The position numbers and the translations under genes are program-made. A stretch of DNA of 64,000 bases from Ostrinia nubilalis (Eukaryota > Arthropoda > Insecta > Lepidoptera > Crambidae): contig NC_087113.1 of NCBI RefSeq assembly GCF_963855985.1, positions 10,947,889 to 11,011,888 on the forward strand. The letters are read 5' to 3'. Shown in pieces: positions 4,351-26,533 of this stretch (its first letter is position 1; each line of letters starts with the position of its first letter). The notes below the pieces were generated by a model. The model was not told where the DNA came from. It saw only the letters and a program-made list of their open reading frames with translations, and did not search any database.

Positions 4351-5379
4351 ATGAACGATCGACTTTTTATTTTGTTTTCTTGTATCACTCTAATTTGTGC
4401 ACATCCCAAAATTAAAAGAGGTGTGCAACCACTGAGTGCAGTATCTGAAGACACGGAATATGGAGACAAACAAGCGACACAATCACCAGAAGAGGAAAAA
4501 GACGAAATAAGAAAGATTCAGTCTGATGAACTGAAAAACAGTGATGTGGACCCTAAAGAATTTGAAGAAACCTTAAATGGAAAGAAATATGTCTGTACCT
4601 GGCATCCTAGATCTGAGAGTCAGTCAGAAGAATCGAAAGAGTCCCACGAAAGTGCATCTGAATCTAAAGAATTTGATACAAAACGTGAATTTGGTACAAA
4701 ACAGTTTGAGAAATCTTTGAATGGACGAAAATATATCTGTGTTTTGAGTTCTGAAACCGAAATTCACTCTGAAGAATCAAGTAAGTCACATGAGAGTGGG
4801 TCCGACGAAGCAAGTGAAGAAGAAGCACTGCAAAACGATAAACAAAATAGAAAGAAACGATCTAATGAATACAAAATAAACGAAGACGAACTGAAACAAT
4901 TCAACGACACTTTAAATGGAAGACAATATGTTTGTATTCGGCAGTCGAACTCTGAGAATCATTCCAACGAAAGCGAAGAATCGAAGGAGTCTCATGAGAG
5001 TAATTCTACTGAGCATGAAAAATCGAAAGAATCACACGAAAGTGGATATGAGTCGGAAGAAATTGCGAAGCGTGAAAATACCACTAAGCAGTATGAAAAA
5101 AATTTGAACGGACGAAAATATATTTGTGTATGGCGATCAAGCTTCGAAATACATTCTAAAGAATCTGAAGAATCAAAGGAATCCCATGAAGAATCAAGTG
5201 AGTCCCATGAAAATAATTCTGAGCATAAAGAATCAAAGGAGTCCCATGAACATAGTTCTGAGCACGAAGAATCAAAGGAGTCCCATGAGAGTGGATCTGA
5301 GCATGAAGAATCAAAGGAGTCCCATGAAAGTGAAGAATCACATGAGTCTCATGAACATAGCTCTGATCATGAAGAATAA
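4351..5379 (+). CDS. Secreted Ser/Glu/His-rich protein with four LNGxxYxC modules (gene 1)
   Basis: A 342-residue intronless frame of no named family that I recognise. Residues 1-17 form a signal peptide (MNDRLFILFSCITLICA). The rest is strongly acidic and holds four modules, each [FY]-x3-LNG-[KR]-x-Y-[VI]-C, with single cysteines at 82, 130, 195 and 259. Modules 1 and 3 (YVC) resemble each other, as do 2 and 4 (YIC), as if a pair had been duplicated. Basic sites precede the modules: KIKR (20-23), KR (111-112), RKKR (167-170) and KR (240-241). The protein could therefore be a precursor cut by proprotein convertases; this is inference. The C-terminal third is 13-residue ESKESHE-type repeats rich in S-x-E, a consensus of secretory-pathway kinases. 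Start 4351 is preferred over 4318 because of the TATA spacing and the signal peptide. The frame seems truncated: repeat sequence continues in frame past the stop. Confidence 0.75.
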   Translation: MNDRLFILFSCITLICAHPKIKRGVQPLSAVSEDTEYGDKQATQSPEEEKDEIRKIQSDELKNSDVDPKEFEETLNGKKYVCTWHPRSESQSEESKESHESASESKEFDTKREFGTKQFEKSLNGRKYICVLSSETEIHSEESSKSHESGSDEASEEEALQNDKQNRKKRSNEYKINEDELKQFNDTLNGRQYVCIRQSNSENHSNESEESKESHESNSTEHEKSKESHESGYESEEIAKRENTTKQYEKNLNGRKYICVWRSSFEIHSKESEESKESHEESSESHENNSEHKESKESHEHSSEHEESKESHESGSEHEESKESHESEESHESHEHSSDHEE

Positions 5380-5412
5380 AGTTAGTCACATGAAAACAAA
5401 TCCGAAGATGAA
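5170..5412 (+). repeat. 39-bp coding minisatellite
   Basis: Tandem 39-bp units (13 codons) start at 5191, 5230, 5269 and 5335, with shorter partial units at 5170 and 5308. One more full unit at 5374-5412 lies across and beyond the stop codon. It has the same register but carries TAA (5377) and TAG (5383) where the other units have TCA and a Glu codon. Confidence 0.8.
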
Positions 5413-5535
5413 ATCAAATACAAACGTTAGTGAAAAAGTATACCTACCGTGTTAACTTTAGATATTATATCGCGTCCCTTAAAGTATGTTTCCGTCCTAG
5501 CCTATTTAAAACTGTAGCAATTAGATACCATAACC

Positions 5536-5541
5536 AATAAA
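5536..5541 (+). terminator. Polyadenylation signal, gene 1
   Basis: AATAAA lies 157 bp after the stop codon. It is the first canonical hexamer I see downstream of the gene. Confidence 0.5.
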
Positions 5542-6706
5542 ATTGTTTATGCAAGGGCAGAACATTTTCATTTTAACTCAATTATCTTTAATTAACTGTG
5601 TTAAGGCTTAAGATGGTTTGGCATCAATAAATAGAAACTAAATACCTAGTTGAAGCAAAAAGGAACATCAAGTTGGAGGCTTCATGTTTTGACAGCTCGT
5701 GTAAAAATACATAAATAGTACCTACACCATTTTATGCGTTAATAAAATATAAGGTATGAACTTTTTCAAAACTTGTTCAATGAACAAAATAAAGATAAAT
5801 AAGGCCGTCTGATAAATTATTCCGAATGTTTTATAGAATTATTATAATTTATTTTACTTGTTTGTACATTTACATCTCCTGCATCGTTGTCTGTGGTAAA
5901 ATGCAGTCCTCCTAACTCGAATTTATTATTGTGAAATGCCTAATAAAGTTATTCTTATTTATAGAGTTCTTTATTACGTGGAAACCCGTAAACCTACTAG
6001 CGCTACCAAAATCATCTGCATTAGACGAAAATTAATTATATTTGTATTATTATATGGTTTGTAGTCTTTTATTTGTTTGTTTTAATACAATATTTTTATT
6101 ATTTTCTTGAATTATTATGTCCAGGTAAGTCCAAAAGACGTCTAGAGGAAAACACGTGGGTTTTCCTCCAACTGTCTGGCGCGTACTAAACTGGTTTAAC
6201 CGGGCCATCATCCAACTTTAGGAGACAGGGTCCGCACAGAATAGACAAAACAAAAGATAGTCTGTCATCGATAATAAAGAAAAACCACCAATATTCAGAT
6301 CATGTATAACATGGTGGCTAAAAAGATAAAGATAAACATGTCGTGATCATGAGGACAATACTCGTAATTTTATTATGTTCTGTTTCAATTCTAATTTTCA
6401 AATGCGTATGACTCTGACGGAATTCAGTCTAGGTAGGTACAAAGTTTAGTAGATTATAAGATTGTATTTATACGTTTATTTGGATATTATTAATTTACCA
6501 CCATAATACAAAAAAGTTAAACACGCGATGAATACTGATCTAAAATGACATTCCAATACTAAATGTCAAGTGATCAACGCGAGTTAATATTTTTGCAATA
6601 AGGGGGTAAAATTCTAAATAACTAATGACTACTTACAGCATCGAAATTTTCTTAATGCGTTCATAATTGTATTTCCCGTCATCACTCATTATAGTATCAC
6701 TACGAT
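5542..6706. other. Intergenic AT-rich stretch
   Basis: I see no gene or clear repeat between gene 1 and gene 2. There are several further AATAAA hexamers (for example near 5941), which could serve as alternative poly(A) signals. Confidence 0.5.
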
Positions 6707-6750
6707 TGAGTCACATTGGCCCCTAGTCTAGTACCCTTCATCTTTATAAA
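6707..6750 (+). promoter_or_regulatory. Promoter of gene 2: AP-1-like site and TATA box
   Basis: TGAGTCA (6707-6713) is a bZIP/AP-1-type heptamer. TATAAA follows at 6745-6750. An initiator-like CCAGTC lies at 6773-6778, about 29 bp below the TATA box and 16-20 bp before the ATG at 6794. This arrangement rules out the upstream in-frame ATG at 6716, which precedes the TATA box. Confidence 0.6.
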
Positions 6751-6793
6751 CAAAACAAAAGCATCAACACTGCCAGTCTCAAACAAAACCAAT

Positions 6794-9700
6794 ATGTTGC
6801 CTCACGTATTCTGTGTATTCGCGTGTGTTGTGTTCGTACAATCCACTCCTATTAAGGGTGGTACCGTAGACTTAGCTAATCCTGAGCAAGCAAAAGGTTA
6901 TGATCATAGTACAATATTGAAAGAGCTTGCAAGACTGGACGGATTGACCACTGAGAAGGTTATAACAGAAGATGCTGTTGCTAAAGACGAAGAAAAAGCT
7001 GAAGATAAGGATGGAGAATCAAATTCAAGAGTCAAAAGAGAAGACAAACCTGTTATATCTCTAGATAATAATACTAGCAGTACTGATGCGAAGAACAATA
7101 CTGATGTTGGCAATGGTATAGAGGACGTCAAAGACAGGCCAGACATCGATACAATACTGACAGTATTCAATAACAAAATCGGCATTTCGAAAAAGTATTA
7201 CTTCAAAAATATATACAGAGAGGTGAACAATGGGAGGTATAAGTGCAAAATTGGGATAACTACTGGAAATGTCATATTCTACTACAGATGTATTTTAGAA
7301 AGGTGAGTTGAGTGAATGAGTTTTTGGTGCCGGTTGGTGGGCACCATAAAACAACTTGTATCTGTGACTTCTGTAGAGATTCTATGAAAATATAACTCGC
7401 GCTAAGTTTGATAACGTGGTTTATTCATAAGCTTAAACACAGTACATTTTACTTGCACAATTATTTATAATTCGCGGGCGAGTCTAATAGTACGAAGTGT
7501 CATCTGGCGGCCGCCTGCCTAGCGAGTCTTCATGTTGGTAAACCGAAGCAGTATTGCCAACCACACGATGACATTTCGCTACACCACCCCCCCACGGAGT
7601 AAAAAGGAGAATTATTATCAGTACACCGAGATAACAATTATATTTAACATTAATGTAAAGGAGTGGTGTTCATACAAATAAAATAAGTGAACTTGTAAAA
7701 GATTTTAACCTATTTACACATCACAACCCGTGAGAAAAAAGAAAACCAAAGGAAACAATACACTTAAACTATGTTACATACAGTCTACAGACATTTGAAA
7801 ATAAGATAATATAACCTTTGTTTTGATAAATTTGAAAAATAAAAATAATAATAAAAGCTTATTTACAAATCTAAAATAGTCTTAAATCTAACCTTTCGAC
7901 CAGATCGAGTGGTTATGGGCTGCTGGGGCAAAGTACCTACAGGGCTAGGAGGTTGCATTGATACTGAAGGTTTATTAGGGATAGGGGTGGTGGGTTTAAG
8001 AAGGCTAGAGTTAAAATCGGATGAAATATACGCAGGCTTAGTACGATCGATGCTAACTTCTTGTTCTTTGCCAGATACGTCAATGGTAATGGTTTTGTTA
8101 TTCCGTTTCAACACCTTATAGGGACCAGTATATGGTGGTTGAAGAGATCGACGTACTGTGTCATCCCGTAGAAAAATATGAGTAGATTTTTCTAAATCTT
8201 TGAAAACAAAAGACCTTGGATTTGAGTGTCGAGTCGCGGGAGTGGGACGTATTGCTGCCATGATTGACCGCAGACTAGCGATAAACTCCTCTGAGGTTTC
8301 CTTAGGTGAGCAGTCGGAAATCAAGAGTTCTCCAGGAAGACGCAATGGTTCTCCATACACAAGCTCAGCTGAGGAACATTCTAAATCTTCCTTAAGAGCC
8401 GAACGTATCCCTAATAGAACCAAAGGCAGGGCACGATACCAAGAGTCTTGGTGGCACATAAGAGCTGCTTTTAATTGTCGATGAAGTCGTTCCACCATAC
8501 CATTCGCTTGGGGATGATAGCTGGTGGTTCTTATGCGTTTAGTGGCAGTTATAGACATCAGTTTGCTGAAAAGCGCCGATTCAAACTGCCGGCCTTGGTC
8601 TGTGGTGATGGTTGCTGGTACGCCAAATCGAGCAATCCACCCGTGGATGAGCCGTTCAGACACTTCTTCAGCAGTGATACCGACCATTGGAAACGCCTCA
8701 GGCCAACGTGAAAACCTATCTATTGCTGTGAGGCAGTACGAATATCCATTAGAAATTGGCATAGGCCCTATAATATCAATATGGATGTGTCTAAACCTTG
8801 CCGTTGGCGTGGAAAAAGTTTCCAGGGGAGAGAAAACATGCCGGGTAACTTTGCATTTTTGACATGCCAGACATTCTCTTGACCATTGCCGACAATCTTT
8901 GTTCATCCCAGGCCAAACGTAACGGTCCGAAACCAGCCGTGCGGTAGCAGAAGTACCCGGATGACTGAGGTTGTGGAGGTGGTTAAAAGTCGCTCGACGA
9001 AATGAAGGTGTCAGGAAAGGTCGAGGTTTGCCAGTAGACATGTCACAATAAATTTTAGTGTTGGTTCCTGGGACTGCTACTTTAGATAATTTCAGGCTCG
9101 ATCCATTCTGAAGTAAATTAGCTAGCTCAGCATCGGATTCTTGGGATTTTTCTAAAGATTCAAAATCCTGCCCTAGCGCAATGGCGTCAACACGGGATAA
9201 AGCATCCGCTACCACATTATCCTGACCCTTGACATATTGAATATCAGTAGTAAACTGAGCTATAAAAGATAATTGGTTTAATTGTGGAGGCGGAAGTTTT
9301 TCTCGGCGTTGAGTGAAGGCATAGAGCAAAGGTTTGTGATCCGTATACACTGTTGCATGCTGAACTTCTAGAATATGTCGAAAATGTTGAACACTTTCGT
9401 ATACCGCTAGGAGCTCTCTATAGTAAGCTGGTAATGCAGCCTGTTTGGGAGTCAGTTTTTTGCTGAAGAAGGCTAAAGGTTGCCATTCTCTATTGACCTT
9501 TTGTTGAAGACAGGCACCAACGTGGGAGCTTGAAGCATCTGTAAAAAGGCCCAATGATGCCTCTTGATGGGGATGGGCTAAAAGAGCGACAGAAGACAAA
9601 CTTTTTTTACACGCTTCAAAATGTTGTAACAATTCCGATGACCATATAAATGGCTTCGCACCTTTTCCACCAATAGCTGTCAGCGCATCAATAAGGGGTG

Positions 9701-12700
9701 CTTGATGCTGGGCTGCGTTAGGTAAAAATCTTCGATAAAAATTAATCATCCCTAGAAACCGTCGCAAGCCTTGCACCGTCTTTGGAGGTGGAAAATCAAC
9801 GAGGTCTTTGATACGGTTCTCTGGGGGAAGAGTGCCCTCTGCATTTATTGTGTAGCCCAAGAAAGTAACTTGCTTCTTTCCCAAAACACATTTTGTTGGA
9901 TTAATCACCATCCCATAATCATGAAGCCTCTGAAAAAGTATTCTGAGATGTTCTTTGTGCTCCGACATGCTCTTTGAAAAGATTAGAATGTCATCAACAT
10001 AGGCAAAACAAAAGTTCAAACCACGCACAACCTCATCTACGAACCTTTGGAAGGTTTGTGCCGCGTTCCTAAGTCCAAAACTCATGAGAGGGAACTCGTA
10101 CAGGCCAAATGGAGTTGCAATGGCTGTTTTGCACACGTCGTCTGGGTGGACAGGAATTTGATGATATGCCTTTGCTAAATCCACTGTACTAAAAATAGTT
10201 GATCCAGCCAAATTATGGCTGAAATCCCCTATGTGCTTTACGGGATAAGAGTCAGGAATGGTGCGAGCATTTAGGGCGCGATAATCCCCACACGGGCGCC
10301 ATGATGAGTCCTTTTTGGGTGCCAAATGCAATGGTGAGGCCCATGGACTATTAGAAGGGCGTGCAATTCCACACTTAACCATTTCTTCAAATTCTTTCTT
10401 TGCAACTAAAAGTTTCTGAGGAGCTAGACGCCGGGGACGACAGCTGACCGGAGGACCTTCGGTTGTCAAAATATGGTGTACCGTGTTGTGTTTTACCTGT
10501 GTTGGGAGACCTGGAGGACGAGTGAGGTCTGGAAATTCCCGTAAGAGATCCGCGAAAGGAGAGTCGTTTTGAAAAATAGCTTTGACACTTTGCTGATGAT
10601 GAGACGAGACGCTTGCTGGCGATGTTAGCCCTGTACTACCGTCTCTTAGAAGTTTATGTCGACAATCAGGTAAAAGGTTATAATAAGCTAAGAAATCAGA
10701 TCCCACGATTGCCATATCTACATCTGCAATAACGAAATTCCACTTAAAATCACGTCTTAGTCCGAAATTGAGAATTAACGTGCGACAACCATAAGTATTA
10801 ATTGAAGAGCCATTAGCTGCACTTAGCTGAAACCCTGTGGGTTTGTGGTGAATCTTCAAGAATTTTTTTGGAAATATACACAGATCAGATCCTGTATCGA
10901 GCAAAAACCGTACCTTGCTATTTTTATCCGTGATGAAAAGACGGCGACTAGTATAACTGCAATCAGATGTCGCCATCACTGATTGCCGTCTTGATTTCCC
11001 GAAGAGGTCCAGGAACACGGTTCTATACATTTCTTAGCCTTCGGTCCGAAACGGTAATGATACCAACAGAAAGGCCGTGCTCTAGATGAAGAAGATGCTC
11101 TAGAACTCGAGTTCGAGCGAGATCGCGAGGAGTCTCTTCTTGACTTATGCTGCGTAGAAAGAGCCGCTACCTGACTAGTAAGAGTTTGCAGTTGAGAGGT
11201 AATTTCGGCTAAATCAAAAGCTTGTGAAGGCATTTTTACGGCACTTACAGTGATTGGGGACACTTCAATGATTTTATCTGCAATTTCTGCAATTTTGTCC
11301 AGGGGCAATTCAGCTTGGGTGGCTAAAATGGCTTGAATATTGAAAGGTAAACGATGTAACCAAAGTTCTCGCAAAATTGTATCATCTGAAAGAGTTTTAC
11401 CTGCCAGAGATCTCAGATGACGAAGGAACTGTGTGGGCTTGCGGTCTCCTATTTCCTCCCCCGAAATGAGTTGCCTAACCCGCTGAACTTCCGAAATTGA
11501 AAACCGACTTATCATTTCTCTTTTGATCCAATCATAACGCTGGCCTTTAGGTGGAGGGTTAGTGACGAGGTCTTCAACCTCATTCGCCAGTCTGGAGTCA
11601 ATCTGGGCTACAACATAATTATATTTAGTCTCATCGGCAGAAATCTGAGATAAAGCAAATTGTGCCTCTATATGAGCAAACCAAGCTGCGGGACGGTCTA
11701 CCCAAAATGGGGCCAATTTTGGGCTGATTGCCAATGATTTGGGGACATCGCTTACTTGCGGTGGATCTGCAGATGGTTGCGCGGAAAGCCTATTTTGTAA
11801 ATCCGCATTTTGTTGCAGCAATGCGTTATTTTGAACTAAAAGTTCTTCCAAACGATCTTGTAATTCTTTAAATTCTGCCATATTACAAACCTGGTTAGAT
11901 TATTCTTAAAAATAAAAAGTTATAATTTAAGTGAAAACAATTAAATTAATTAAACTTAAGAAAGAAAATAAAACCTTTTTTGTGCAATAACAATACGCAG
12001 AATTTTGAATAGTAAAAACAAAACTCTTTAAAAAAATTTTTTTTAAAAAGTTTCAGACAATAGACAATGCAAAAACACACACAGCTGTTTTAGCGACAAT
12101 GGCGGCAAAACAAAAACACCAACTATGCCGTACACTTACTGAACTACCAAAACTATTTATTACGTATGATACTACTTGCATGACCTTTTCACTGTATGAT
12201 CCTCATGAATAGAAGTCCTAAATCTTGCTTGTTAACGTAGTCTGATTGAACTCTTGAAACACTGGATGTGGTTGGTTACACGTAAAATTTGTACGGCCAA
12301 AACCCGTCCTTTTCATTTAGCCGATGTTGAAGATGAAATCCAAGGCAATCTTGACTGTGTTTTAATTTCGTAGCATGATGTATTTACAGTGCTGATTGAA
12401 ATAGTAATGTACTTGTACTGTATCCTTGTTTCGTGGTCAGACGCGTCGGGGTCACCAATTTGGTGCCGGTTGGTGGGCACCATAAAACAACTTGTATCTG
12501 TGACTTCTGTAGAGATTCTATGAAAATATAACTCGCGCTAAGTTTGATAACGTGGTTTATTCATAAGCTTAAACACAGTACATTTTACTTGCACAATTAT
12601 TTATAATTCGCGGGCGAGTCTAATAGTACGAAGTGTCATCTGGCGGCCGCCTGCCTAGCGAGTCTTCATGTTGGTAAACCGAAGCAGTATTGCCAACCAC

Positions 12701-13269
12701 ACGATGACATTTCGCTACAAGTTCATGATCCAGAAAGTGTAAAAATATAATAAATATAAGGGACTTTTTCCAGTTTTAGTTTAGACTATAGTTATGAAAA
12801 ATAATATTTTACATTGCCCTAGATTTAATGTTGTAGGGAATGAATTTTAAATACTTTAGCCGTTAAATATACGTATAGAACATACAATGTTTTTAAAACT
12901 GTATCATAATTTTTAAAGAGATAGGTATGAACAATGCAATCTTAATAACATAATAAATATTTGTAGTGTACATTTATTATTTAATTTTCATAATATTCGA
13001 AATTAACCTTGTCCGTCTGTTGGTTGTTTTCACTCCTAAATAGTTATTAAAATTATGCTCTTTTGTATAGAGATAAATAGTACATAGGAGAAAGACATGG
13101 TCTACCTTTTGTCTTTAAAGACTGTTTAGGTCAGTAAAGTTCGCGATCATAAGAGTACAATAAAATGTGTAACCAATAATAATAATTGTTTTTGTTTTGT
13201 TTCAGTAACGGCATCTCGGGCGAGGGCCTGATCGAGGCGGGCGAAGGCGATATGTTTGACATCGCATAA
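6794..13269 (+). CDS. Secreted acidic preproprotein with one Cys-pair module (gene 2; join 6794-7302, 13206-13269)
   Basis: Two exons encode 190 residues. Exon 1 ends AG before a GTGAGT donor at 7303. Exon 2 follows a pyrimidine tract and TTTCAG, and the phase-2 join completes a Ser codon. Residues 1-18 form a signal peptide. Residues 19-78 are acidic, Lys/Glu-rich. RVKR at 79-82 is a good furin-type site. Next comes an Asn-rich stretch with potential N-glycosylation sequons (92-94, 101-103), then the module NNGRYKC...YYRC with Cys 151 and 166. The tail is Gly/Glu-rich, ending MFDIA. The module matches those of genes 3 and 4, so this belongs to the same cluster; no family name is recognised. 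The intron is 5.9 kb only because a gypsy element landed 20 bp inside it; without the element it would be about 0.5 kb. AATAAA lies at 13291. Confidence 0.8.
7323..7583 (-). repeat. 3' LTR of gypsy element
   Basis: 261 bp, beginning TGTAGCGAAATG and ending GGCACCAAA in element sense. It reads identical to the LTR at 12459-12719. Boundaries were set by the flanking AGTT duplication. Confidence 0.9.
7584..7597 (-). other. Polypurine tract of gypsy element
   Basis: In element sense the sequence CGTGGGGGGGTGG directly abuts the 3' LTR. This is the expected plus-strand priming position. Confidence 0.7.
7863..11030 (-). CDS. pol: Gypsy Pol polyprotein: protease, RT, RNase H, integrase
   Basis: A 1,055-codon uninterrupted frame. 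Residue numbers here count from the ATG at 11030, but translation more likely enters by -1 frameshift from gag. Domains in order: aspartic protease with DTG (45-47); reverse transcriptase with YVDD (344-347); RNase H with acidic residues at 498, 539, 564 and 609; integrase HHCC zinc finger (His 686 and 690, Cys 720 and 723) and D,D(35)E core (Asp 752, Asp 811, Glu 847); then a GPY/F-like module near 960-990. All catalytic residues expected of the family are present. It copies the element RNA and inserts the cDNA into the genome. A stop at 11036-11034 lies just upstream in this frame, so the overlap with gag is only about 55 bp. Confidence 0.93.
10976..11881 (-). CDS. gag: Gypsy Gag protein with CHCC finger
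   Basis: 301 residues. A Leu/Gln/Asn-rich coiled-coil-like N terminus (about 4-32) precedes a retrotransposon capsid region (about 48-215, around the conserved PxxWF and LRxLAG-like segments). An Arg/Ser-rich stretch follows (about 248-268). The nucleocapsid finger reads C272-x2-H275-x9-C285-x3-C289, which is the CHCC order of the CsRn1/Kabuki clade rather than the usual CCHC. Gag forms the particle that packages element RNA. The start is the first ATG after the leader. The C terminus overlaps pol in the -1 frame. Confidence 0.9.
10994..11000 (-). promoter_or_regulatory. -1 ribosomal frameshift slip site GGGAAAT
   Basis: In gag frame the heptamer reads G GGA AAT, a canonical X XXY YYZ arrangement, 15 nt before the gag stop codon and within the short gag/pol overlap (11033-10979). 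Slipping back one base enters the pol frame directly. I did not fold the downstream RNA. Confidence 0.75.
12442..12457 (-). other. Primer-binding site, tRNA-Trp type
   Basis: In element sense TGGTGACCCCGACG begins one base after the 5' LTR. Fourteen bases are complementary to the 3' end of animal tRNA-Trp (known from recall). Use of tRNA-Trp is typical of the CsRn1 clade. Confidence 0.75.
12459..12719 (-). repeat. 5' LTR of gypsy element
   Basis: 261 bp, reading identical to 7323-7583. It is followed on the plus strand by the second copy of the AGTT duplication. Confidence 0.9.
13206..13269 (+). CDS. Gene 2, exon 2
   Basis: Follows TTTTGTTTTGTTTCAG. It encodes the last 21 residues, ending MFDIA and TAA. 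It is markedly GC-rich (GGCGAGGGCCTG-type codons) next to AT-rich exon 1, an odd contrast for one gene. The phase matches the exon 1 donor exactly. Confidence 0.75.
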
Positions 13270-13290
13270 CATTATTTTAATGTAGTTAAT

Positions 13291-13296
13291 AATAAA
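13291..13296 (+). terminator. Polyadenylation signal, gene 2
   Basis: AATAAA begins 22 bp after the stop codon, in a T-rich context. Confidence 0.6.
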
Positions 13297-13446
13297 TTAT
13301 TTATAAATATATCATTGTTATTTTATTTTGCAATTTAAAATTCAAAACTATTTAGTACTTAGGTCCTTTCCAGGGTACTTGAACACGTCCAAAATACAGC
13401 ATGCCTCTACTTTTAGATAATATTTATTTATTCGAACTCAGCATCT

Positions 13447-13564
13447 CTAAGAATGGGTTCCACCATGTTAATTTTACTTTGACAAACGTCAAAAATCTGT
13501 CTAACTCCATGCAAAAATACCGGTTATAGAACAGTTAAAGTTAGATGGTGCAACTCACCCTAAG
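13447..13564. repeat. MITE, GGTTGCACCAT/ATGGTGCAAC family
   Basis: The palindromic ends flank an inner TTTGACAAACGTCAAAAATC. A better preserved copy of the same family is at 53544-53669. Confidence 0.65.
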
Positions 13565-15000: not shown

Positions 15001-18000
15001 ATGCTTGCACGCGTTGGTCTTATAGTGTGTGTTGGGATATTCCTAACGTGTGCGAGTCCTGTGCCTCAAGAAAACAATGACCCAGATGTTGTAGACCGAA
15101 CACCAGCACTAGATATATTTGAAGAACAAACGACTGAGATAGCCACTGAAGACCCACTTGCAAATGGTGATCAGGCAAGCAATCCGTCAGTCGCTCAAGA
15201 GGGTGGAAATGAAAACGAAGCTGAATCGAACACTGAAGTAAATGAGACTGCTAACAATAATGAGGGCAATGAAACTGAATCTGAGCCTGAGAACAGTAAA
15301 AACGATGAAGGGTCAGAATCAGGAGCTGGAACTAATGAGCCTCCTATTGAAGACAGCGACTCAAAATCTGAAAGTAATGAAAATGATTCAGGAAATGCAC
15401 ATGAAGACCCAGTTCATGGAAGTGATGAAGACGACTCAGAAGATGATGATGAACATAACGATTCAGATGAGGACCACGCCGTGGCATGGTCCTCATCCGT
15501 GGATGATGAACATCAAATTAATTTGAATGTCATAGAATTAAACGATGTCACTTTAAGGGTTTACAAAACATCGGAGAATCCTGAGTATTTCATGTGCCAA
15601 GAAATTAAGAGGCAAGACAAGATTTTAGAAAAAATTTGCTACATTTCATCACCACCTCCGTAAGTAATGGAAGTATAAAATACACTCGGCATCAAATAAA
15701 TCGCACCTCTCGCGACAAGCACTTTCAAACGTATGCATCCCCACTTCCTACCAATATTGGCACCGTTTAAAAGCCTAGTTCTAAACTTCATTTCATTAAA
15801 GGAAAGGTTTTTACTCCAAAAATGTGTCTTTAGAAGGATCCAGAGTCACTTCTTCAAAAATTGGTAGTTACGCTTGTGTCAACTTTTATGGTTATAAAAC
15901 TGTTAGGTTGTGAAATGAAACACTCTTGTAGGTTGTTCTAACTTGTATTTCAGCACCACTGATTTACACAATTCCGACATTATGACGTCATCTTAATAGT
16001 ACCTCTTGCTTTGAACGCTCAAATCGAACTGACTGTCCAGCGGCATGCCAGCGATAAGGTAACTTCCCCTTCCATCAGTGAAAGTCGACCGGTTCAAAAC
16101 GACTTATCGACGGCATGCTCCGGAACTAGTCAAATGCAATACTTATTTCATAATTAGCTGTTTTCTTAATTTTTAAAATACTAAAAAGTATACAATAAAA
16201 ATCTAAAATAATTAAATTAAATAATAAATATGAAATAATTGGATTTAATACAAAATAAATTCTAAAATCATTCTAATGTCTGCAAAATGCCTAGGAAGTA
16301 ATCAAATAAAGTATTTTAATTTAATAATGGGTTTTTGGGTTCTTCTAAAATACAATACAAATACTAAAATTGTTGCAATAACTATTTAAAAGTAACCAAT
16401 ACTCGTATAAAATACAATATAAATTCTAAAATCATTACATTCGGCCATCCGACACCGTGATGCCTCCCGCCCGGCATTCACGTCTAATAAGGATTTATTC
16501 TAAAATCATTAATATTACTTTTCAAACAATATTACAATATGAAGCATATATAGTAGAATGATAAACAATTCTATGACAACTTGTTAACAAGTGTTTTAAC
16601 ATTAATAATGCATTTTAGAAACTATTCTTCATATTAAACCAGTAACAAATGTTAAGGGAGAAAAATCTTGTAGGCACTTATACACACTATACATTTTCAC
16701 CTAATCTATATTATTCGTAATGACTTATTTTATAACCGATAACGGATATTTGCATGAAATTCAGATATTAATCGTTTTACTTTATAATTTTCTCAAATCT
16801 ACCATATCGAATATATTGGAAACTTCTCTTTTTAAATCCAAATTTTTATTTCACATAAATACACGTCCATTAGATGTTAGTACATAATCAATTTAATTAC
16901 AGTGTATCTTGCCATGACTGCCATGTGAAAGTTATTAAGTTTATAAGAACATGTCAAAACGTTAATATTAAGTATATCCAATTATATCCATTTGTAACCG
17001 TAATCTGGCAAATAATGAATTATGGTCACGATTTATGATTAACACTAAAGGTACTTTCGTCAGAATTATGTATTCCTAAGGCCTTAACATAATTTTCTTC
17101 TTTACAAATTTTCCAAGTTTTTGAAACCAATAGGTACAATTACAGTGTCCTTTGTATTATGTGTTTCTGAATGTCTGTGATGCTCGATTTCATCACGATA
17201 AGCGCAACATATTTGCCATCTAGCTGTACGTGGGACCACTAAAAATAATTTGATAACCTTACTGTATCTGCTATTTGAAGAGATTACGATGTTTGGATGG
17301 GTTGTCGTCAGAATCTATGACTGAATTTTGGTATTTGGACTATTCGCGGAACTAAATTTCTTCTCCTTTTTTTTAACGTGGTTCTTAAGGCAGCATAACC
17401 AGTAGAAACTTTTAAGTCGTAAAAGACATACCTTTTTTTTTAGCACACACACCACAGCTAGTGTCTCTAACTCATAGAAGTTGTCTTTCATTGAAGATGT
17501 CTTTCCTCAGGGGTCGTCTGTCTGTGGGTCGACTAAAGTAAGTGACTGCTACAGAACTTTGAAGACTTCTCTTTATCATCAAGATCTGACTTAAATATGA
17601 TTTAGAGTCCTGAATAATATTGATAATCATAGCATTGGATCAAGTTAGTCATCTATGGTTTTCTGAACCCTTTTCCCTTTTGTAATGAGATAAGTGGTAA
17701 TGGTGGTATTTGCACATTCTTTTTCATCCTGACATCAAAGATTGCACGTGTACGTCCTATCTCAGTCAGATTTATAGCAATACAATCGCGATAATTTCAC
17801 AAAAGAGTATAAAGCTTATCTAACTAACCAGAACATGTCGGAACTAAGTCCGGGCTTAGTCATAAAATCAGCTCTATCGAGAGTATCCATAGCTGAGGGG
17901 TCTTTTACAATTCGATTTACATGACATATTTTATTGGACATGCTCCAAAAAGCATTGAAGTAGCTATTAAAATATTTGCTTTAAGTGTTATTGGACTAGG

Positions 18001-21000
18001 AGACAAATTACCAAAAACGATTTCACCTTTGCCGTTGTGAATTAAAAAGGCTCTTTTAAACACCCGGTACTTGGCCCCCTGTTTAATTTACATACATAAC
18101 ATACAAAACAAACAACTGTGACAAACAAAATTCCACGCGGAAGAACCCTCGGAGGAAAGCTATTCGCATTATAAAATATCACTTGAAAATATAGAACCGC
18201 CTAAGGCGGGAATCGAACCCACGGCCTTAAGCTCGCCAGGTGTCAAGTTATTTTAAAAATTTAAATCGAAAGGCAACTGTAAACGCCAGAAACTATCCTC
18301 TGTAAAACTAGAAATTTATGTTAACTGGTATTCACTTGTGTCCGTCATTTTCGTGGCTCTCGAAAATATTTTGACCAGGAATTTAATGTCAGTATTCAAA
18401 ACCGTGAGAAATTGCAGTTGCGTGAAGTTTTGACCAATAGACGTGTTGACACCGCCAGTTAATTGACGTACTTTTAAAAACTGTTAAATCAAACTCCCAT
18501 AGATTTCGTATGGCACGACAAGCAAGTGACGTCGCTATTTTGTGAATTTAATCAAACTACTTTTCTTAATTACAATCCGACCAAAAATGATAATTTACAG
18601 GTCATTTCAGATTAATTAAGCTTTCAAGATCAGAATGTCTTTAATAAATTGTAATATCGAATCAATATCGGTGTCAAATCGTCCATTGTCAGTGAAGTCT
18701 GCTATACATCATCAATCACTAACACTTCTATAACAGCGTCAATCTCATCAACATTTTTGTTTATATTAGCTCTATACTTAGAGGTATGACTGATGATTGA
18801 CCACAACTTTTACAATTGGAATTGATATTGAAATGATGTGCCAAACTATACTTAGTTTCAGCATCGGTTTTGCGTCAACAAGTGCACTCACTACCAACAC
18901 TTAAAAGGATTTTTCATTTACCAAAACAGTCTCATAGATTTTTTTTGTCATAAAAATAATTACGTAAACTGTTCATCCTTTCAAGTATAAGGATTCAAAA
19001 TTTTCCTCTAACAGACGTCCGTAGTTCTCTTAGCTAAGCCAATTAACTTTTGCAATGTCTAAGTCAAAGACAAAATTCTCTTATTTGCATTAGCTATTAT
19101 AATAGCGCTCACAAAATTGTCATAAAATGAAAGACTACTAAAAGAAAAACTTTAAACTTCTGCTCATTATGGAACCTTGACGTTTCATATCTTTTGCTCT
19201 ACCAAAAAAATGACTAACCTAACCTATGAAACCTTGGTACAGGTACTAAGTTCTTTTTATAGTTACAAATTGCATGACTTTTTTTTATGACTTCTTACAG
19301 TAATATAATATTGTGTTTATTTGAGCTCGCTAACTGATGTAGTTCTTTGAGAAAACTAAATTAGAAGAAAAAGCTTAATTCAACTAGAAACTACCTATCT
19401 AGGTCAGACTAATGTAATCAGAGGTCAGAATAATTCGAAATATATTTTTGAAGTGGAATTATAGATCTATAGACAAGATATTGTACTTGGCAAAAGAACC
19501 TACCGAAAGTCCGAACCGACGACAATTTTAAAATAAACGAATCATTAATTAATTCACTTTACTTGTGTAAAAATATTTAAAAAAATATTTTTTTTTAGCA
19601 CATTTACTTTAACGTTAATTTAAACGTTATGATCGAATACTTTATCATTACCTTTAATTATTACTATTAAAGATTTACTACATAAGCTAATATTCCCATT
19701 TTACTGTAGGTATGCGTAATATTTCATAATGTGTGCGCAATAAAAAAAAACTACCAATAAAAAAATAGGCACTTTTCTTCACTAGAGTCTACCAGAAATT
19801 TTACGAACCTCATGTGGCACTGCTCTTTCAGTAGAGCTGGAAGAAGATGAGCTCCTTCGCGTATTTTTCTTCAACCTTGGCCCCATAGAAGACGATCGTG
19901 GTGGCGCCTTCTTACTGGACGACGACGACAGCTTCGTCCGCTTAGCACGCTTATTTCATCGTCAGCTGACGGGTGTCCCTGGCGGCATACGAGCTCCGTC
20001 TTCAGTAGCCGTTGTACTCAACTGTGAAATAAAGTACTCGACGAAATAAACTGTGTCTGACCAGCATCAACTCAACATCATATGGAAGCTATGTTCATGT
20101 TATATTAAGCAAAAGTTTGATTTGTGTCTTTTCCAAAAATCTAAATCTCAAAAATAAATCTAAAAAAAATCTTTTGTTTGACAGTTAATATTATGCTCCC
20201 TGAGCAAAGTGTGGTAAAATACCATTGTGACATGTTTCTATTATACATATGCATCACAAATAAAGATTTTGTATTTATACTTGTATTTTATTCAGTGCGA
20301 CCTTCACACACAACTCATGTGACAACTGGACGGCTTGCTTGTTATGTCAGTAATAGAAGGCTTTTCATTCTAGAGACTATCCTAAACAATGGGGCCCTTA
20401 AGGCGCATCTAGCCTGATAAACTGGAGGCGCGTCTAGCCTCGTCATACTCAGTCATAGTCCAAGGCGCATGTAGCCTGATGAAACTGGAGGCACGTCTAG
20501 CCTCGTTATACTAAGTCACAGTCATAGTCCAAGGCACATCTAGCCTAATAAACTGGAGGCGCGTCTAGCCTCGTTATATTTAGTCATATTCAAAAGCGCA
20601 TCTAGCCTGATAAACTGGAGGAGTGTCTAGCCTCGTTATACTAAGTCATAGTCATAGTTCATAGTCATAGTTAGTCAAAGTCAAAGTCAAAGCCAAAGCC
20701 AAAGTCAAAATATCTTTATTTGTTTAGTAGACTAATAGCACTTACAAATCGTCAAATATTTTGCTCATAAGGAGCCTCTACATGTCTCATACTTAGTCAT
20801 AGTCAATGAGGCATCTAGCCTGATAAACTGGAGGCACGTCTACCCTCGTTATACTAAGTCATAGCCATAGTCTAAGGCACATCTAGCCTTATAACCTGGA
20901 GGCGCGTCTAGCCTCGATATACTAAGTCAGTCATGGTCATAGTCATAGTCTAAGGCGCATCTAGCCTTGTTATACTTAGTCATAGTCAAAGGCGCATCTA

Positions 21001-23267
21001 GCCTGGTAAACTGGAGGCGCGTCTAGCCTCGTTATACTAAGTCTTAGTCATGGTCAAAGTCATAGTCATAGTCTAAGGCGCATCTAGCCTATTAAACTGG
21101 AGGCGCGTCTAGCCTCGTTGTACTGAGTCATAGTCAAAGGCGCATCTAGCCTCGTTGTACTGAGTCATAGTCAAAGGCGCATCTAGACTTGTAATACTTA
21201 GTCATAGTCAAAGGCGCATCTAGCCTTGTTATTCTAAGTCAGTTATACTAAGTCTTAGTCATGGTCAAAGTCATAGTCTAAGGCGCATCTAGCCTATTAA
21301 ACTGGAGGCGCGTCTAGCCTCGTTGTACTGAGTCATAGTCCAAGGCGCATCTAGCCTTGTAATACTTAGTCATAGTCAAAGGCGTATCTAGCCTGATAAA
21401 CTGGAGGTGCGTCATGGTCATAGTCATAGTCTTAGTCATAGTCTAAGTCTCATCTAGCCTGATAAACTGAAGGCGCGTCTAGCCTCGTTTTAAAAATAAC
21501 TATTTCATGCATTAAACGAAATATTCATACGTTTTTCTACTTGAACTTTTAAAATCAATTACTTTTTAACCAAATAAATAAAAACGTACCTTATGAGCTG
21601 TAGATCACGTACCACTTCTGAGTTGAAATGAAACACTCTTGTAGGTTGTTCTAACTTGTATTTCAGCACCACTGATTTACACAATTCCGACATTATGACG
21701 TCATCTTAATAGTACCTCTTGCTTTGAACGCTCAAATCGAACTGACTGTCCAGCGGCATGCCAGCGATAAGGTAACTTCCCCTTCCATCAGTGAAAGTCG
21801 ACCGGTTCAAAACGACTTATCGACGGCATGCTCCGGAACTAGTCAAATGCAATACTTATTTCATAATTAGCTGTTTTCTTAATTTTTAAAATACTAAAAA
21901 GTATACAATAAAAATCTAAAATAATTAAATTAAATAATAAATATGAAATAATTGGATTTAATACAAAATAAATTCTAAAATCATTCTAATGTCTGCAAAA
22001 TGCCTAGGAAGTAATCAAATAAAGTATTTTAATTTAATAATGGGTTTTTGGGTTCTTCTAAAATACAATACAAATACTAAAATTGTTGCAATAACTATTT
22101 AAAAGTAACCAATACTCGTATAAAATACAATATAAATTCTAAAATCATTACAGTTGCAATTAATCGCTATCCATCTGTTAAAGAGGATACGTGAGATCAT
22201 TATTTGGTTTTATAACCATAAAAATTGGTGTAATTGATCCCAGAGGTATGCCCAAAGTGAGGTCTTTTTTCAAGTCACATTTATGTTAATGTTAATCATT
22301 TATTAAGAAATAAAATGTGTTTTTCTGTAAGGATATTTATTTATTGGGCTTTCTAATAACACCAATATTGTTGGGGCACCATGATTGTGTCAGAAGAAAA
22401 TCTTTGAAGTTCGCGTCGCGGAAGGTGCGGTTTATTTGATGTTGAGTGTATTATCGCATTTAAATAAGTAGGGATAGTTACATCACATAATCATCTTACT
22501 TGAATACTAGTAAGTTTGTAACTAACTTGTTAATATGAACTTTAGCCCGTGATGAAAAGATACATGTCTTCTTGCTTTGTATTCTTTATTTTGAGGTAGT
22601 TGGGATTGAATTCCCTCTACCTACTGGATGCAAATCTTTATAAATAAGAAGTCTTAAATTGGTTAATTGGATAACTGATTAAATATATCTAAAATCAGTT
22701 AACAAGCTAGAATTAACTTCTAGAATTAATTGTTTTCTTTCAGGTTTTTCTTTAATTTCCATCCGAGGGAGCAAGTGTCGGTATTCCGTCAACATACAAA
22801 TGGCCAAGACTTCATTTGTCAGGATATAACAACCCTTCTATCAGGATCACTTCAAGTCCTATGCGCTTCGTAAGTATAAGTATTTTTACAATTACTTCTA
22901 ATACAAGAATATGGATACACTACATTTTAAATAAACAACTTGGAAAAATCGAACTGTCTAAGGCGGGACTCGAGCCCATGACCAACTGAGTTACTTAGAC
23001 ACTGGATGAACCTGTCGAAATTTTCAAGTATAATACACTGTTATGGCCGCGTTTTATTTCATCAATGTTGGGTAGTACTACTTTCAATACTCAATATATA
23101 GTACCACTTATGGCTATACTGTTGTTGTTATGATTTACATTATCTACAATTTATTTACTTAAATTGATTCGATATATGTATTTTTATATTACAGAAATAA
23201 GGAACACTATTTCAAGCAATCGTATGGTCTCAAGAAATTTATCGTATATCATAAGAAATCATCATAA
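15001..23267 (+). CDS. Secreted acidic protein with two Cys-pair modules (gene 3; join 15001-15659, 22744-22869, 23195-23267)
   Basis: Three exons encode 285 residues. A signal peptide (about 1-18, ending LTCAS) is followed by about 150 residues rich in Glu, Asp, Asn and Ser, including a nearly pure Asp/Glu/Ser/His stretch near 140-158. Module 1 ends exon 1 (Cys 199 and 213 around CQEI). Module 2 is all of exon 2 (NGQDFIC...LQVLCAS, Cys 245 and 260). The tail is short and basic. Donors are GTAAGT after 15659 and 22869; both introns are phase 2, and every join keeps the frame. Gene 4 is a tandem paralogue with the same structure, which confirms the exon calls. Intron 1 is 7.1 kb because a non-autonomous LTR element sits in it. 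AATAAA lies at 23429. Function unknown; secretion and possible disulfide-bonded modules are inferred. Confidence 0.85.
15911..16439. repeat. LTR (left) of non-autonomous element
   Basis: 529 bp with TG...CA termini. It contains AATAAA within its AT-rich right half on the plus strand. It reads identical to 21624-22152. Confidence 0.88.
18190..18245 (-). repeat. tRNA-like 3' half
   Basis: The minus strand contains GTGGGTTCGATTCCCGCC (T arm and B box) and CTTAGGC, preceded on the plus strand by ACTTGAAAA. Related copies are at 22943-23020 and 46984-47175. It is a fragment, not a tRNA gene. Confidence 0.5.
19782..20025 (-). pseudogene. Decayed Lys/Arg/Ser-rich coding remnant
   Basis: The minus strand reads as a coding-like segment with MPPGTPVS, then KRAKRTKLSSSSSKK, then a Ser run and a final stop at 19784-19782. 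Two in-frame stops fall just after MPPGTPVS. It resembles a basic tail of a retroelement or host nuclear protein, but I cannot name it. It lies inside the non-autonomous LTR element, so it may be captured or leftover sequence. Confidence 0.3.
20398..21490 (+). repeat. Complex tandem array of GGCGC[AG]TCTAGCCT units
   Basis: About 1.1 kb of alternating blocks: AAGGCGCATCTAGCCTGATAA, then CTGGAGGCGCGTCTAGCCTC, then variable numbers of AGTCATAGTC. Many units are partial, reordered or lack one block. The array is interrupted at 20665-20805 by a LINE tail. It lies near the right end of the non-autonomous LTR element. Confidence 0.85.
20665..20805 (-). repeat. LINE 3' tail inserted in the tandem array
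   Basis: Same family as 186-395. The plus strand starts with a run of AGTCAAA-like heptamers (the tail), then the sequence around CTTTATTTGTTTAGTAGAC and ACAAATCGTCAAAT. Confidence 0.6.
21624..22152. repeat. LTR (right) of non-autonomous element
   Basis: 529 bp, reading identical to 15911-16439. It is followed by the second GTTG duplication. Confidence 0.88.
22744..22869 (+). CDS. Gene 3, exon 2 (one complete module)
   Basis: A 126-bp symmetrical phase 2-2 exon between TTTCTTTCAG and GTAAGT. It encodes one module with NGQDFIC, QDI and LQVLCA. Length and phase parallel the 135-bp exon 2 of gene 4. Confidence 0.85.
22943..23020 (-). repeat. tRNA-like fragment in gene 3 intron 2
   Basis: The minus strand has TCATCCAGTGTCTAAGTAAC, a D-arm, then directly the T arm (GGGCTCGAGTCCCGCC); the anticodon arm is missing. 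It shares flanks with the tRNA-like pair at 46984-47175. Confidence 0.5.
23195..23267 (+). CDS. Gene 3, exon 3
   Basis: Follows TTTTTATATTACAG. It encodes 24 residues, basic (KQSYGLKKFIVYHKKSS), to TAA. Its start (A AAT) matches the exon 3 start of gene 4 (A AAT GAG), although the remaining sequence has diverged. Confidence 0.8.
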
Positions 23268-23428
23268 ATTATTTATTGGGATAATAATTCACAAACCCAA
23301 TTTATTCTTTCTTAAACCATATTGGTAGGCACCTATGTAAATTAAATCTTAAATACCAAACATACTATTTTGTTGTTATATCTTATATTAAAGTAACATA
23401 AAATAATAATATCAGTGTTACCTTTTAA

Positions 23429-23434
23429 AATAAA
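23429..23434 (+). terminator. Polyadenylation signal, gene 3
   Basis: AATAAA lies 162 bp after the stop, followed by GTGTC and T-rich sequence. Confidence 0.5.
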
Positions 23435-23644
23435 GTGTCAATTTATTACTTGTTTAATTTTGTTTAATTGTTGGATTTTCTTGAATAAAAGCAAATAGGT
23501 GAGGAATATTGTTTGTAGACACTTGTATCTATAAGATTTTATCCTTATAAACAGAGCAAAAAACTGGGAAAACCGTTTGTTGTTAAATCTTGTTATACAT
23601 AAATATAATAATTAACATACTTGTTTTTTCATTATGTTATCCTT

Positions 23645-24563
23645 AAAACCTACCGTTATCTAACTACTTGTTCTACCTTCCTCTAAACAAAAGTAATACT
23701 ACTCTTGCTACTTATTTTAATAGATAAACACTAGCTTTTCCCACGGCTTCACCCGCATGAGACAGAGCGTCAACAGAGCAAACATCTGGGAAAAACCGTT
23801 TGTTGTAACATAAATGTTTATAAACATAAAATATAAGTGATATACAATAATTTACATACTTGTGCCTTCATTATTCGGATTTCCACTGCGCAGCGAATAT
23901 GTTATCCTTCCTTTATAACTTTTAAATATTTATAACTAATTTAAATATCATTAACATCCCTGAAGGATTTACTGCCTACGCATATAGACAATACTATGTT
24001 GACATGTTAGTTGGTGCTATAATGTTTAATCTATACCAATATTATAAAGAGTAAAGATAAATTGTTATTTTGTATTGAACAGGCACCTTAACTACTAGAT
24101 CGATTTTAAAATATATATTTTTCAGCATTAGAATCCATTTTTTTCTGATTAGTTAAATACCGATGTCTAAAAGTCTTTTGGCTCGGTCCCCCGGCAATCC
24201 AGCTTTGCAGGATCCAGTAATTCAGGCCTGCCACGAGTACAATACACCGCCTGTCACGAGTCTTTGCACCGAGTATAGTATGGATTTCTAAAAAAGGATA
24301 GATAATTTGGCCTGTGGAACGGAGCAATGAACTGAAAATACTTTGAATGCCTACAGTAAATAAACGACTTATTCTCAAACACTATTTGGTATAAATTAAT
24401 AACTTGCAAATGGAAAATTAATTACTTATAATATTATAAGTTAAGGATAATGGTGTGAGTTGACTCAACCCACTTTGCAAAAGTCCCAAGAATAAGGAAA
24501 CATAAGTTGTAATATAAATAATCAGATCCATTGGCATGCTACATTTATGTTGCAATCGTCACG
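23645..24563 (+). promoter_or_regulatory. Duplicated upstream region of gene 4 with TATA box and TGACTCA
   Basis: Homologous to 14416-15000. TGACTCA (24461-24467) and TATAAATA (24513-24520) are conserved. The interval between the TATA box and the ATG is 43 bp, against 43 bp in gene 3. A start site near 24543 leaves the upstream ATG at 24531 outside the mRNA. A dispersed-core copy at 23731-23760 is also shared. Confidence 0.6.
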
Positions 24564-26533
24564 ATGCTTGCACGCGTTGGTCTTATAGTGTGTGTTGGGA
24601 TATCCCTAACTTGTGCGAGTCCTGTGCCTCAAGAAAACGATGACCCAGATCTCGGTGTTGTAGGTCGAACAACACTACCATCAGATGAAATTTACGAACA
24701 AGCAACTGAGTTAAACACTGAGGACCCCCTTGCAAATGGTGCTGATCAGGCAAGCAATCCATCAGTAGCTCAAGAGGGTGGAAATGAAAACGAAGCAGAA
24801 TCGAATACTGAAATAAATGAGACTGTTAACAATAATGAGCGCAGTGAAACTGAATCTGAGCCTGAGAACAGTAAAAACAACGAAGGATCAGAATCGACGG
24901 TAGGGACTAATGAGCCTCCTATTTTCGAGGACAGTGACGTAAAATCTGAAGGTAAAGAAAATGATCCAGGAAATGCTCATGAAGACCCAGTTCGTGGAAG
25001 TGATGAAGAAGACTCAGAAAATGATGATGGACATCACGATTCAGATGATCAACATGAAATTACTCTGAATGTCATAAAAATAAATGACGTCACTCTAAGG
25101 GTTTACAGATCACCGGGGTATTATGAGTATGTCGTGTGCCAAGAAATTAAGAAGCATGACCGGAGTATAGAAAAAGCTTGCTTTACTTCATCACTAAGTC
25201 CGTAAGTATTATTTTGTTTTTTGCAACATACCCAAAAATTTGTAAAGCCCGGTCCGTGAGCACGTAGAATTTTGTCCAATGATCCCAAGCTAACCATCCT
25301 AATCGCTCGCGTGTAATTATATTGCTGTCGCGACTGTGCGACGGGCGCCCGCAGTGAGTGTGCGAGCGCGACAGCAACACAATTACGCGCGAGCGATAAG
25401 GATGGGTAGTTTAGGGTCATTAGACAAAATTCTACGTGCTCACAGACCAGACTGTAGACTACAGTCATCATATCAATATCTTACTTTATCTATCAGAATA
25501 TTATGTACTTGTGTTATATAAATAATACAGACTTTAGGTCGTGTTATCTTTTTTGTTATAATGTATGCTTGAATTTTTAATTGCTGTTGCGCTCGCACAC
25601 TCACTGCGGCCGCTCGTCGCATAGTCGCGACAGCAATATAATTACTCGCGAGCGATAAGGATGGGTAGCTTGGGGTCGTTGGACGTAATTCTACGTGCTC
25701 GGCGACTGGACTTTAGTTGGAAATTGTAAATTCTGGACTTATTCATACTAAAGAAAAATATATCAGGCACCTATTTCAGAACTATGAGTCTACTTGTAAG
25801 AACATTATTTATGTAGATGTAGGCTTTCCTTTTTTTCCAAGTTATTGAGCAAATATATTGTTAAGCTAGAATTAACATTCTGTGCTTTTTTCAGGTATCT
25901 CTATGATTGGGAATTCAATAAACCAAGGGAGTTAGTGGCAGTGTTTCCCATACATTTAAACGGACAAGATTTCACTTGCCAGGAAATAATAAGCGTTATA
26001 AAAGGACCACTTCAAATCTTATGCGCTTCGTAAGTACCTACCTATCTTCTTAATTACTATTATTTATGTATTATTTTTAATTACTGTTATAAGAATACGA
26101 TACTGTTTGCTTTGTCAGTTTCCCTTCACTGAAGCTATACAAGGTCGTCCCAAAAAGTTGTGTCAAGCTGAAGCCGTAGAGCAACACTAGGGCTATCTGA
26201 ATCACCCCCATGTACATATGTTCCGCGATTTTGGATAGGTTACGAGATATGATTGTTTTAAATTTCTGTGCTTGGGCACTTTTTTGGTCACTGTGGCGCG
26301 AATAGATTAGGGGGTGAAGCCGCGGGCAAAAGCTAGTTTATTATAAGATCATAGATTAGATATTAAGGTTACATTAAAAAACCCTGAAGACGTTATAAAC
26401 GATTTTAATTTAGTGTCATACATAATACATAACTTAATTGATTGGTAAATGTTTATGTTACAGAAATGAGGGGCACTTTTTGGACCGATCGCCAGGAGTC
26501 GTCAACAAATATATACCTATAGGTAATGATTAA
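24564..26533 (+). CDS. Secreted acidic protein with two Cys-pair modules (gene 4; join 24564-25201, 25895-26029, 26464-26533)
   Basis: The tandem paralogue of gene 3; 280 residues in three exons. The signal peptide is nearly identical (MLARVGLIVCVGISLTCAS). An acidic Glu/Asn/Ser-rich middle with shared blocks such as NPSVAQEGGNENEAESNTE is followed by module 1 (Cys 192 and 206) and exon 2 = module 2 (LNGQDFTC...LQILCAS, Cys 241 and 256). The tail (NEGHFLDRS...IGND) has diverged from gene 3. Donors GTAAGT at 25202 and 26030 and acceptors TTTTTTCAG and TATGTTACAG all give phase 2. Introns are short (693 and 434 bp) but hold MITEs. Start 24564 is favoured over 24531 by the paralogue and the TATA spacing. 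AATAAA lies at 26578. Function unknown. Confidence 0.88.
25249..25452. repeat. CpG-rich palindromic MITE in gene 4 intron 1
   Basis: Ends near GTCCGTGAGCACGTAGAATT face AATTCTACGTGCTCACAGAC, with inner CGCTCGCG/CGCGAGCG arms. It begins 47 bp after the donor. A half copy of the same family is at 25580-25705. Confidence 0.75.
25580..25705. repeat. Half copy of the CpG-rich MITE
   Basis: Contains the right half of the 25249-25452 family (GCGAGCGATAAGGATGGGTA and AATTCTACGTGCTC). The left arm is missing. Confidence 0.6.
25895..26029 (+). CDS. Gene 4, exon 2 (one complete module)
   Basis: A 135-bp phase 2-2 exon between TTTTTTCAG and GTAAGT, encoding the second module. It aligns with exon 2 of gene 3 except for three extra codons in the N-terminal part. 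Confidence 0.88.
26140..26340 (-). repeat. MITE fragment plus dispersed-core repeat in gene 4 intron 2
   Basis: GTCCCAAAAAGTTGTGTCAAGC through AGTGCCCAAGCACAGA-type sequence matches the MITE at 33536-33918. The right edge carries the minus-strand core GAAGCCGCGGGCAAAAGCTAG (26317-26338 region). Confidence 0.55.
26464..26533 (+). CDS. Gene 4, exon 3
   Basis: Follows TGTTTATGTTACAG. It encodes 22 residues ending IGND and TAA. The phase completes the Ser codon split after exon 2. Confidence 0.82.

Follow-up and report, generated by a model that had tools for sequence, protein, structure and literature searches.

The 64,000-nt stretch of Ostrinia nubilalis DNA analysed here, referred to as the window, carries four consecutive plus-strand genes (genes 1 to 4) that are real and form a cluster mostly annotated yet uncharacterised. 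The favoured explanation, to which a probability of roughly 0.4 is given, is a tandem cluster of four small acidic secreted proteins acting as gland-secreted matrix, coating or silk-type additives. It looks like an uncharacterised moth protein family and not a new kind of system, in which at least three of the four products seem to have a short Cys-bearing fold in common. Each product has a signal-peptide-like start and an extended acidic region that is presumably disordered. In the products of genes 2-4 one or two Cys-bearing modules, predicted to be beta-structured, lie in the carboxyl half, and gene 1 strings four single-Cys hairpins through a Ser/Glu/His-rich chain. An acidic or phosphorylatable chain would bind water and cations, and the beta modules would stabilise the chain ends or crosslink molecules. 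Gland products (silk, saliva, coating or reproductive secretion) fit best because the proteins are presumably secreted, acidic and of low complexity, with Cys-bearing beta ends and compact TATA promoters.

Gene models and database counterparts

The gene models were rebuilt from the sequence and give four complete reading frames (Table 1). The predicted isoelectric points of the whole proteins are 4.95, 4.89, 4.18 and 4.23 for genes 1 to 4, the four translations start with hydrophobic, signal-peptide-like N-termini (judged by eye) and a polyadenylation-like signal follows the stop codon in 4/4 genes. All five introns are GT-AG and in phase 2. A preliminary description of this DNA had proposed four consecutive plus-strand genes with acidic products and five phase-2 introns, and the rebuilt models bear out both claims. 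In addition to the TATAAA box of gene 1, the remaining three genes carry one at -49, -51 and -51. Among the window's 1123 plus-strand ATGs, TATAAA stands at -53 to -49 in only 5 cases, and these include all four gene starts, a pattern that was noticed after the fact.

Genes 2-4 have annotated counterparts. Gene 3 is letter for letter the O. nubilalis protein P0003 of LOC135084665 (0/285 residues differing). Gene 4 differs at 9/280 residues (97% identity) from P0001 of O. furnacalis LOC114357310, and gene 2 at 1/190 (99% identity) from P0004 of O. furnacalis LOC114353853, P0001 and P0004 each being placed on a 420,381-base O. furnacalis contig. These matches run full length and therefore cover the splice junctions of genes 2-4, giving independent support to the models. 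None of the three loci has a functional name. The isoform P0002 of LOC114357310 bears the automatic name TRAF-family-like; it lacks a 31-residue piece of module 1 that contains the first Cys (approximately 25080-25172 in the window), and no GT-AG pair fitting this gap was seen by eye in the window sequence. The protein search used genes 4, 2 and 1 as queries, gene 3 not being a query of its own, and 3 of 970 scored candidates matched gene 4 and 1 of 69 gene 2. Relatives were found in Ostrinia only; since the search requires shared exact 5-residue words, this is no proof of restriction to the genus.

Gene 1 is taken as a real gene because of its long open run, the differences between its modules and the common TATA layout. 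Its stop-free run of 356 codons is longer than any found in 100 shuffles of the window, where the longest has 227. Among the four modules the proportion of synonymous differences (pS) is 0.76 and that of non-synonymous differences (pN) 0.19 (15 codons; six non-independent comparisons), so that the modules look selected and are under constraint. The protein contains 18.1% Ser and 37 S-x-E sites, compared with 14.1 +/- 3.0 in shuffles, which also break the tandem repeats. S-x-E is the site of the secretory kinase Fam20C, and the chain may be phosphorylated. The terminal repeat unit (5266-5395), part of a tandem repeat, runs on beyond the stop codon, and the carboxyl-terminal array has therefore probably varied in length.

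Table 1. Positions of the four genes and of their parts in the window
Feature	Position	Strand	Support
Gene 1, single-exon open reading frame, 342 aa, signal-peptide-like start, Ser/Glu/His-rich	4351..5379	+	Stop-free run, module pS/pN
Gene 1 hairpins, four single-Cys LNG[KR][KQ]Y[VI]C, Cys 82, 130, 195, 259	within 4351..5379	+	Translation
TATAAA box of gene 1, at -51	4300..4305	+	ATG-relative position
Gene 2, whole gene, 190 aa	6794..13269	+	
Gene 2 exon 1, signal-peptide-like start, acidic region with RVKR site, lone two-Cys module (Cys 151 and 166)	6794..7302	+	P0004 match
Gene 2 exon 2, tail; entry via split Ser codon, then Asn	13206..13269	+	Covered by P0004
Gene 3, whole gene, 285 aa	15001..23267	+	
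Gene 3 exon 1, signal-peptide-like start, acidic region, module 1 (Cys 199 and 213)	15001..15659	+	Identical in P0003
Gene 3 exon 2, module 2 (Cys 245 and 260), 126 nt, symmetrical 2-2 exon	22744..22869	+	P0003 match
Gene 3 exon 3, tail and stop	23195..23267	+	P0003 match
Gene 4, whole gene, 280 aa	24564..26533	+	
Gene 4 exon 1, signal-peptide-like start, acidic region, module 1 (Cys 192 and 206)	24564..25201	+	P0001 match
Gene 4 exon 2, module 2 (Cys 241 and 256), 135 nt, symmetrical 2-2 exon	25895..26029	+	P0001 match
Gene 4 exon 3, tail and stop	26464..26533	+	P0001 match

The Cys module

The strict motif NG-x-x-[YF]-x-C occurs six times in the six frames of the window, always within genes 1, 3 and 4, while 60 Markov shuffles average 0.87 occurrences and never exceed 3. 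When 100 kb were added on each side (264 kb in total; stop-free fragments of at least 15 residues), the same six motifs and no others were found. The motif was picked by eye beforehand and these counts are post hoc. Profile and tblastn scans of the 264 kb likewise revealed no members beyond the four genes. Variants of the motif had been proposed for all four genes; the strict form holds for genes 1, 3 and 4, and gene 2 carries NNGRYKC, one residue short. The partner Cys described in genes 2-4 as 13 or 14 residues away is confirmed: in genes 3 and 4 the two Cys are separated by 13 residues in module 1 and by 14 in module 2, and the gene 2 module also has 14.

The profiles were compared with 1000 shuffles each, unscored shuffles being counted as lower. 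With the module 2 profile, both halves of gene 1 and module 1 of gene 3 outscored all the shuffles, and 33/1000 scored as high as module 1 of gene 4. In the other direction, the module 1 profile ranked module 2 of gene 3 above all 1000 shuffles and module 2 of gene 4 above all except 14. On these scores the module is homologous in genes 3 and 4 and was probably duplicated within them. A relationship between the gene 1 hairpin and module 2 is suggested by one test direction. Pairwise tests of the carboxyl regions gave p < 0.05 for 9 of 18 pairs, with no correction.

Gene 2 is tied to genes 3 and 4 structurally, by intron position, Cys spacing and location, and not by sequence. Its intron resembles intron 2 of genes 3 and 4 in having phase 2, in interrupting a Ser codon and in the Asn that comes next. 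According to the preliminary description, the introns fall just after the second Cys and modules coincide with symmetrical exons. The first point does not hold as stated: the distance is one whole residue for intron 2 of genes 3 and 4, three for gene 2 and six for intron 1 of genes 3 and 4. The second applies only to exon 2 of genes 3 and 4; module 1 of these genes forms the end of the long exon 1, the only module of gene 2 also lies in exon 1, and the four modules of gene 1 stand in one uninterrupted exon with one Cys each and no partner.

Duplication and evolution

Genes 3 and 4 align at the DNA level with 86.9% identity over 544 columns, 80.6% over 165 and 80.0% over 85. The alignment runs from the promoter through exon 1 and resumes in exon 2. 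Their first 29 bases, common to both, occur exactly twice in the genome (495,445,069 bases in 52 contigs, the window lying near the end of an 11,232,888-base contig), at those two starts. By these alignments genes 3 and 4 are recent tandem duplicates, in line with the proposal of a lepidopteran, here Ostrinia, family of putative secreted proteins grown by gene duplication. For genes 1 and 2, the signs of gene duplication are suggestive or structural only.

The same proposal called the family rapidly evolving, which as a general claim finds no support. Besides the few differences separating genes 2 and 4 from their O. furnacalis relatives, the gene 3/4 pair has an overall ratio of non-synonymous to synonymous divergence (Ka/Ks) of 0.59 (bootstrap 0.42-0.88). 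Gene 4 shows conservation of its modules between the two species' sequences: 0/94 residues differ in the module region and 9/186 elsewhere (Fisher p = 0.031). Between the paralogues the pattern is reversed, Ka being 0.098 in the acidic part, 0.264 in module 1, 0.309 in exon 2 and 0.701 in the tail, with Ks of 0.274, 0.216, 0.582 and 0.902, respectively. Compared with exons 2-3, exon 1 has fewer synonymous (p = 0.0038) as well as fewer non-synonymous differences (p = 1.6e-8). The 5' part of the two genes is therefore read as homogenised by gene conversion, or as the product of a mosaic duplication, and not as proof of positive selection. Positive selection on module 1 (Ka/Ks 1.22) was rejected as unsupported, the bootstrap interval of 0.50-5.57 including 1.

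Predicted fold

For the fold prediction, module 1 of gene 4 (52 residues) was used in an alignment with four other modules. The best of five models reached a predicted local distance difference test score (pLDDT) of 85.2 (range 64.2-85.2) and a predicted template modelling score (pTM) of 0.63. It places strands at 6-13, 16-24, 29-37 and 40-48, a predicted four-stranded beta-meander with the two Cys in strands 3 and 4. A structural search with this model returned no significant match; in BFVD, 1018 matches were obtained at E up to 10, none at or below 0.001 and the best at 0.09. PC4, Pur-alpha, cystatin-like designs and propeller blades were middling structural neighbours and are read as common sheet shapes. 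Among solved structures, the alignment A2 matched sperm-associated antigen 6 at E 0.48, the module alignment gave one match at E 4.3 and gene 2 none. The Crov539 protein of Cafeteria virus matched gene 4 (E 0.0081) and alignment A2 (E 0.0027) in a stretch that takes in the last part of module 1 together with the linker. Several sub-significant stretches overlap in this target and the match is taken as chance. In viral contigs, 69 and 6 stretches fitted a pattern and 0 were confirmed.

Comparison with known families

No Pfam or NCBIfam model matched the cluster proteins at its curated cut-off; in NCBIfam the acidic stretch alone was hit, below the cut-off (E 0.012-0.038). As far as these two libraries go, this agrees with the statement that no described family is recognisable. 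The literature searches gave no hit to the locus numbers of five Ostrinia loci and no description that could be linked to these sequences.

Lepidopteran silk additives (sericins, mucins and P150) are described as secreted and repetitive products of clustered genes, with a CXCX or three-Cys motif close to the C-terminus of sericin 1, mucin 1 and P150 (PMC9745057). The cluster resembles such middle-silk-gland additives in its presumed secretion, its repetitive character, its gene clustering and the Ser-rich gene 1. It differs from sericin 1, mucin 1 and P150 in having neither of these motifs and no C-x-C, the Cys of the mature cluster proteins being at least 14 positions apart, and from silk additives in general in that genes 2-4 have no Ser-rich repeats.

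Other families were considered and rejected. The FHL2/3 LIM model (Pfam PF25076) matched gene 1 with a whole-protein E of 3e-06 through a nine-residue stretch (121-129), the SLNGRKYIC hairpin, the score presumably being due to the four recurrences of the hairpin. It amounts to 27.7 bits, against a curated cut-off of 35, and no stretch passes singly. The LIM zinc-ligand pattern needs more Cys than the one per module of gene 1, which makes zinc ligands impossible. CBM14 (peritrophin-A) is a six-Cys chitin-binding domain; with the signal peptide set aside, none of the cluster proteins has more than four Cys, and none has a CBM14 Pfam match up to E 1. TIL or zonadhesin-like silk inhibitors were likewise rejected, with two Cys per module and no TIL or EGF Pfam match up to E 1.

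Insertions and neighbourhood

The very long introns are recent insertions outside the basic design of the cluster, since they come close to the 693 bases of gene 4 once the inserted elements are removed (502 bases in gene 2 and 838 in gene 3). The intron of gene 2 holds a minus-strand long terminal repeat (LTR) retroelement (7323-12719) with 261-bp LTRs, 100% identical, AGTT flanking repeats and, in the scanned pieces, matches to reverse transcriptase, integrase and a DUF7041 gag-type domain. Intron 1 of gene 3 holds an LTR-type element (15911-22152) with 529-bp LTRs, also 100% identical, GTTG flanking repeats, no stop-free run above 90 codons and a minisatellite at about 20399-21489.

Downstream of the cluster lies a large imperfect inverted repeat (27420-38854), with arms at 27420-28581 / 37696-38854 (98.5%), 28583-30520 / 35568-37490 (96.6%) and 32296-32862 / 35013-35570 (96.3%). 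A further inverted repeat of 167 bases (40759-40925 / 41098-41264), 100% identical, is hairpin-like or resembles a miniature inverted-repeat transposable element. ARAGORN reported a tRNA-Ala at 47088-47162 (+) and a tRNA-Leu at 48417-48488 (-), and Rfam a tRNA at 47089-47161 and a second one at 47004-47069 (-). Of the 44 neighbouring stop-free fragments of at least 130 residues, 10 were scanned and only 1 of these had a Pfam match (reverse transcriptase).

Alternative explanations

Several results weigh against a single family of gland-secreted additives. The combined profile of genes 3 and 4 does not recognise gene 2 (143/1000 shuffles equal or higher), nor do the separate module 1 and module 2 profiles (829 and 482 of 1000 as high). 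The gene 1 profile matches genes 3 and 4 weakly (90 and 37/1000) and gene 2 not at all (112/1000), module 1 shows no match to the first half of gene 1 (233/1000; second half unscored), and in a whole-window scan with the module 2 profile gene 1 came fifth (E 0.44), behind two unrelated fragments. None of the 2,220 scored candidates matched gene 1 (query residues 1-275) in the protein search, and genes 2-4 have no excess of S-x-E sites over shuffles. The full-length gene 4 relative is predicted poorly (pLDDT 39.4), though its strands fall in the module region. Moreover, the limits of strands 3 and 4, joined by a tight two-residue turn, put the two Cys one register apart, and a disulfide within the module therefore remains a guess. 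The single module initially supposed to be common to the cluster stands in the case of genes 3 and 4; for gene 1 the signs are suggestive, and for gene 2 the sequence gives it no support.

The four genes might accordingly not be one family, genes 3 and 4 being a duplicate pair and genes 1 and/or 2 unrelated secreted genes nearby whose NG-turn hairpins arose by chance or convergence. NG is a common beta-turn sequence, gene 1 has neither intron nor partner Cys, and beyond failing the profile tests the carboxyl part of gene 2 gave p < 0.04 against genes 3 and 4 in only two of six pairwise tests, with one more at p = 0.041. Nevertheless, the split Ser codon shared by genes 2-4 one or three residues past the second Cys, the TATA position common to all four genes, the scores of both gene 1 halves with the module 2 profile and the confinement of the strict motif to the cluster within 264 kb make this reading somewhat doubtful. 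The products could also be proproteins in which furin-like cuts would free a Cys-bearing carboxyl part from an acidic pro-region, yielding small secreted peptides or effectors with a reproductive or immune role. Acidic pro-regions commonly adjoin small Cys domains, and furin-like sites are present in gene 1 (KIKR 20-23, RKKR 167-170) and gene 2 (RVKR 79-82). This is unlikely, as genes 3 and 4 contain only KR or KK pairs and no four-residue site, and those of gene 1 fail to separate the modules from the remainder. Male or female reproductive-fluid proteins, with paralogues diverging under sexual selection, would agree with the Ka/Ks of module 1, and such gene clusters are common in seminal families; the width of the bootstrap interval and the unchanged modules of the orthologous gene 4 render this quite improbable.

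Implications

In a broader reading that we also regard as unlikely, the cluster of putative gland-secreted proteins would contain a small extracellular beta module that has not been described before and is confined to one group of moths. Its hairpin (gene 1), single (gene 2) and double (genes 3 and 4) forms would stand side by side, the second copy as one symmetrical exon, and would record the growth of a domain family from a hairpin. Were these genes unrelated, the locus would be an ordinary duplicated uncharacterised pair beside two other genes; in either case gene 1 is a gene without annotated relative in the protein search. Should the genes with the hairpin, the single module and the double module truly be related, they would constitute a compact record of the birth of a secreted domain and of its duplication by exon, and would tie a moth-specific protein family, in a testable way, to a glandular or reproductive secretion of a crop pest.

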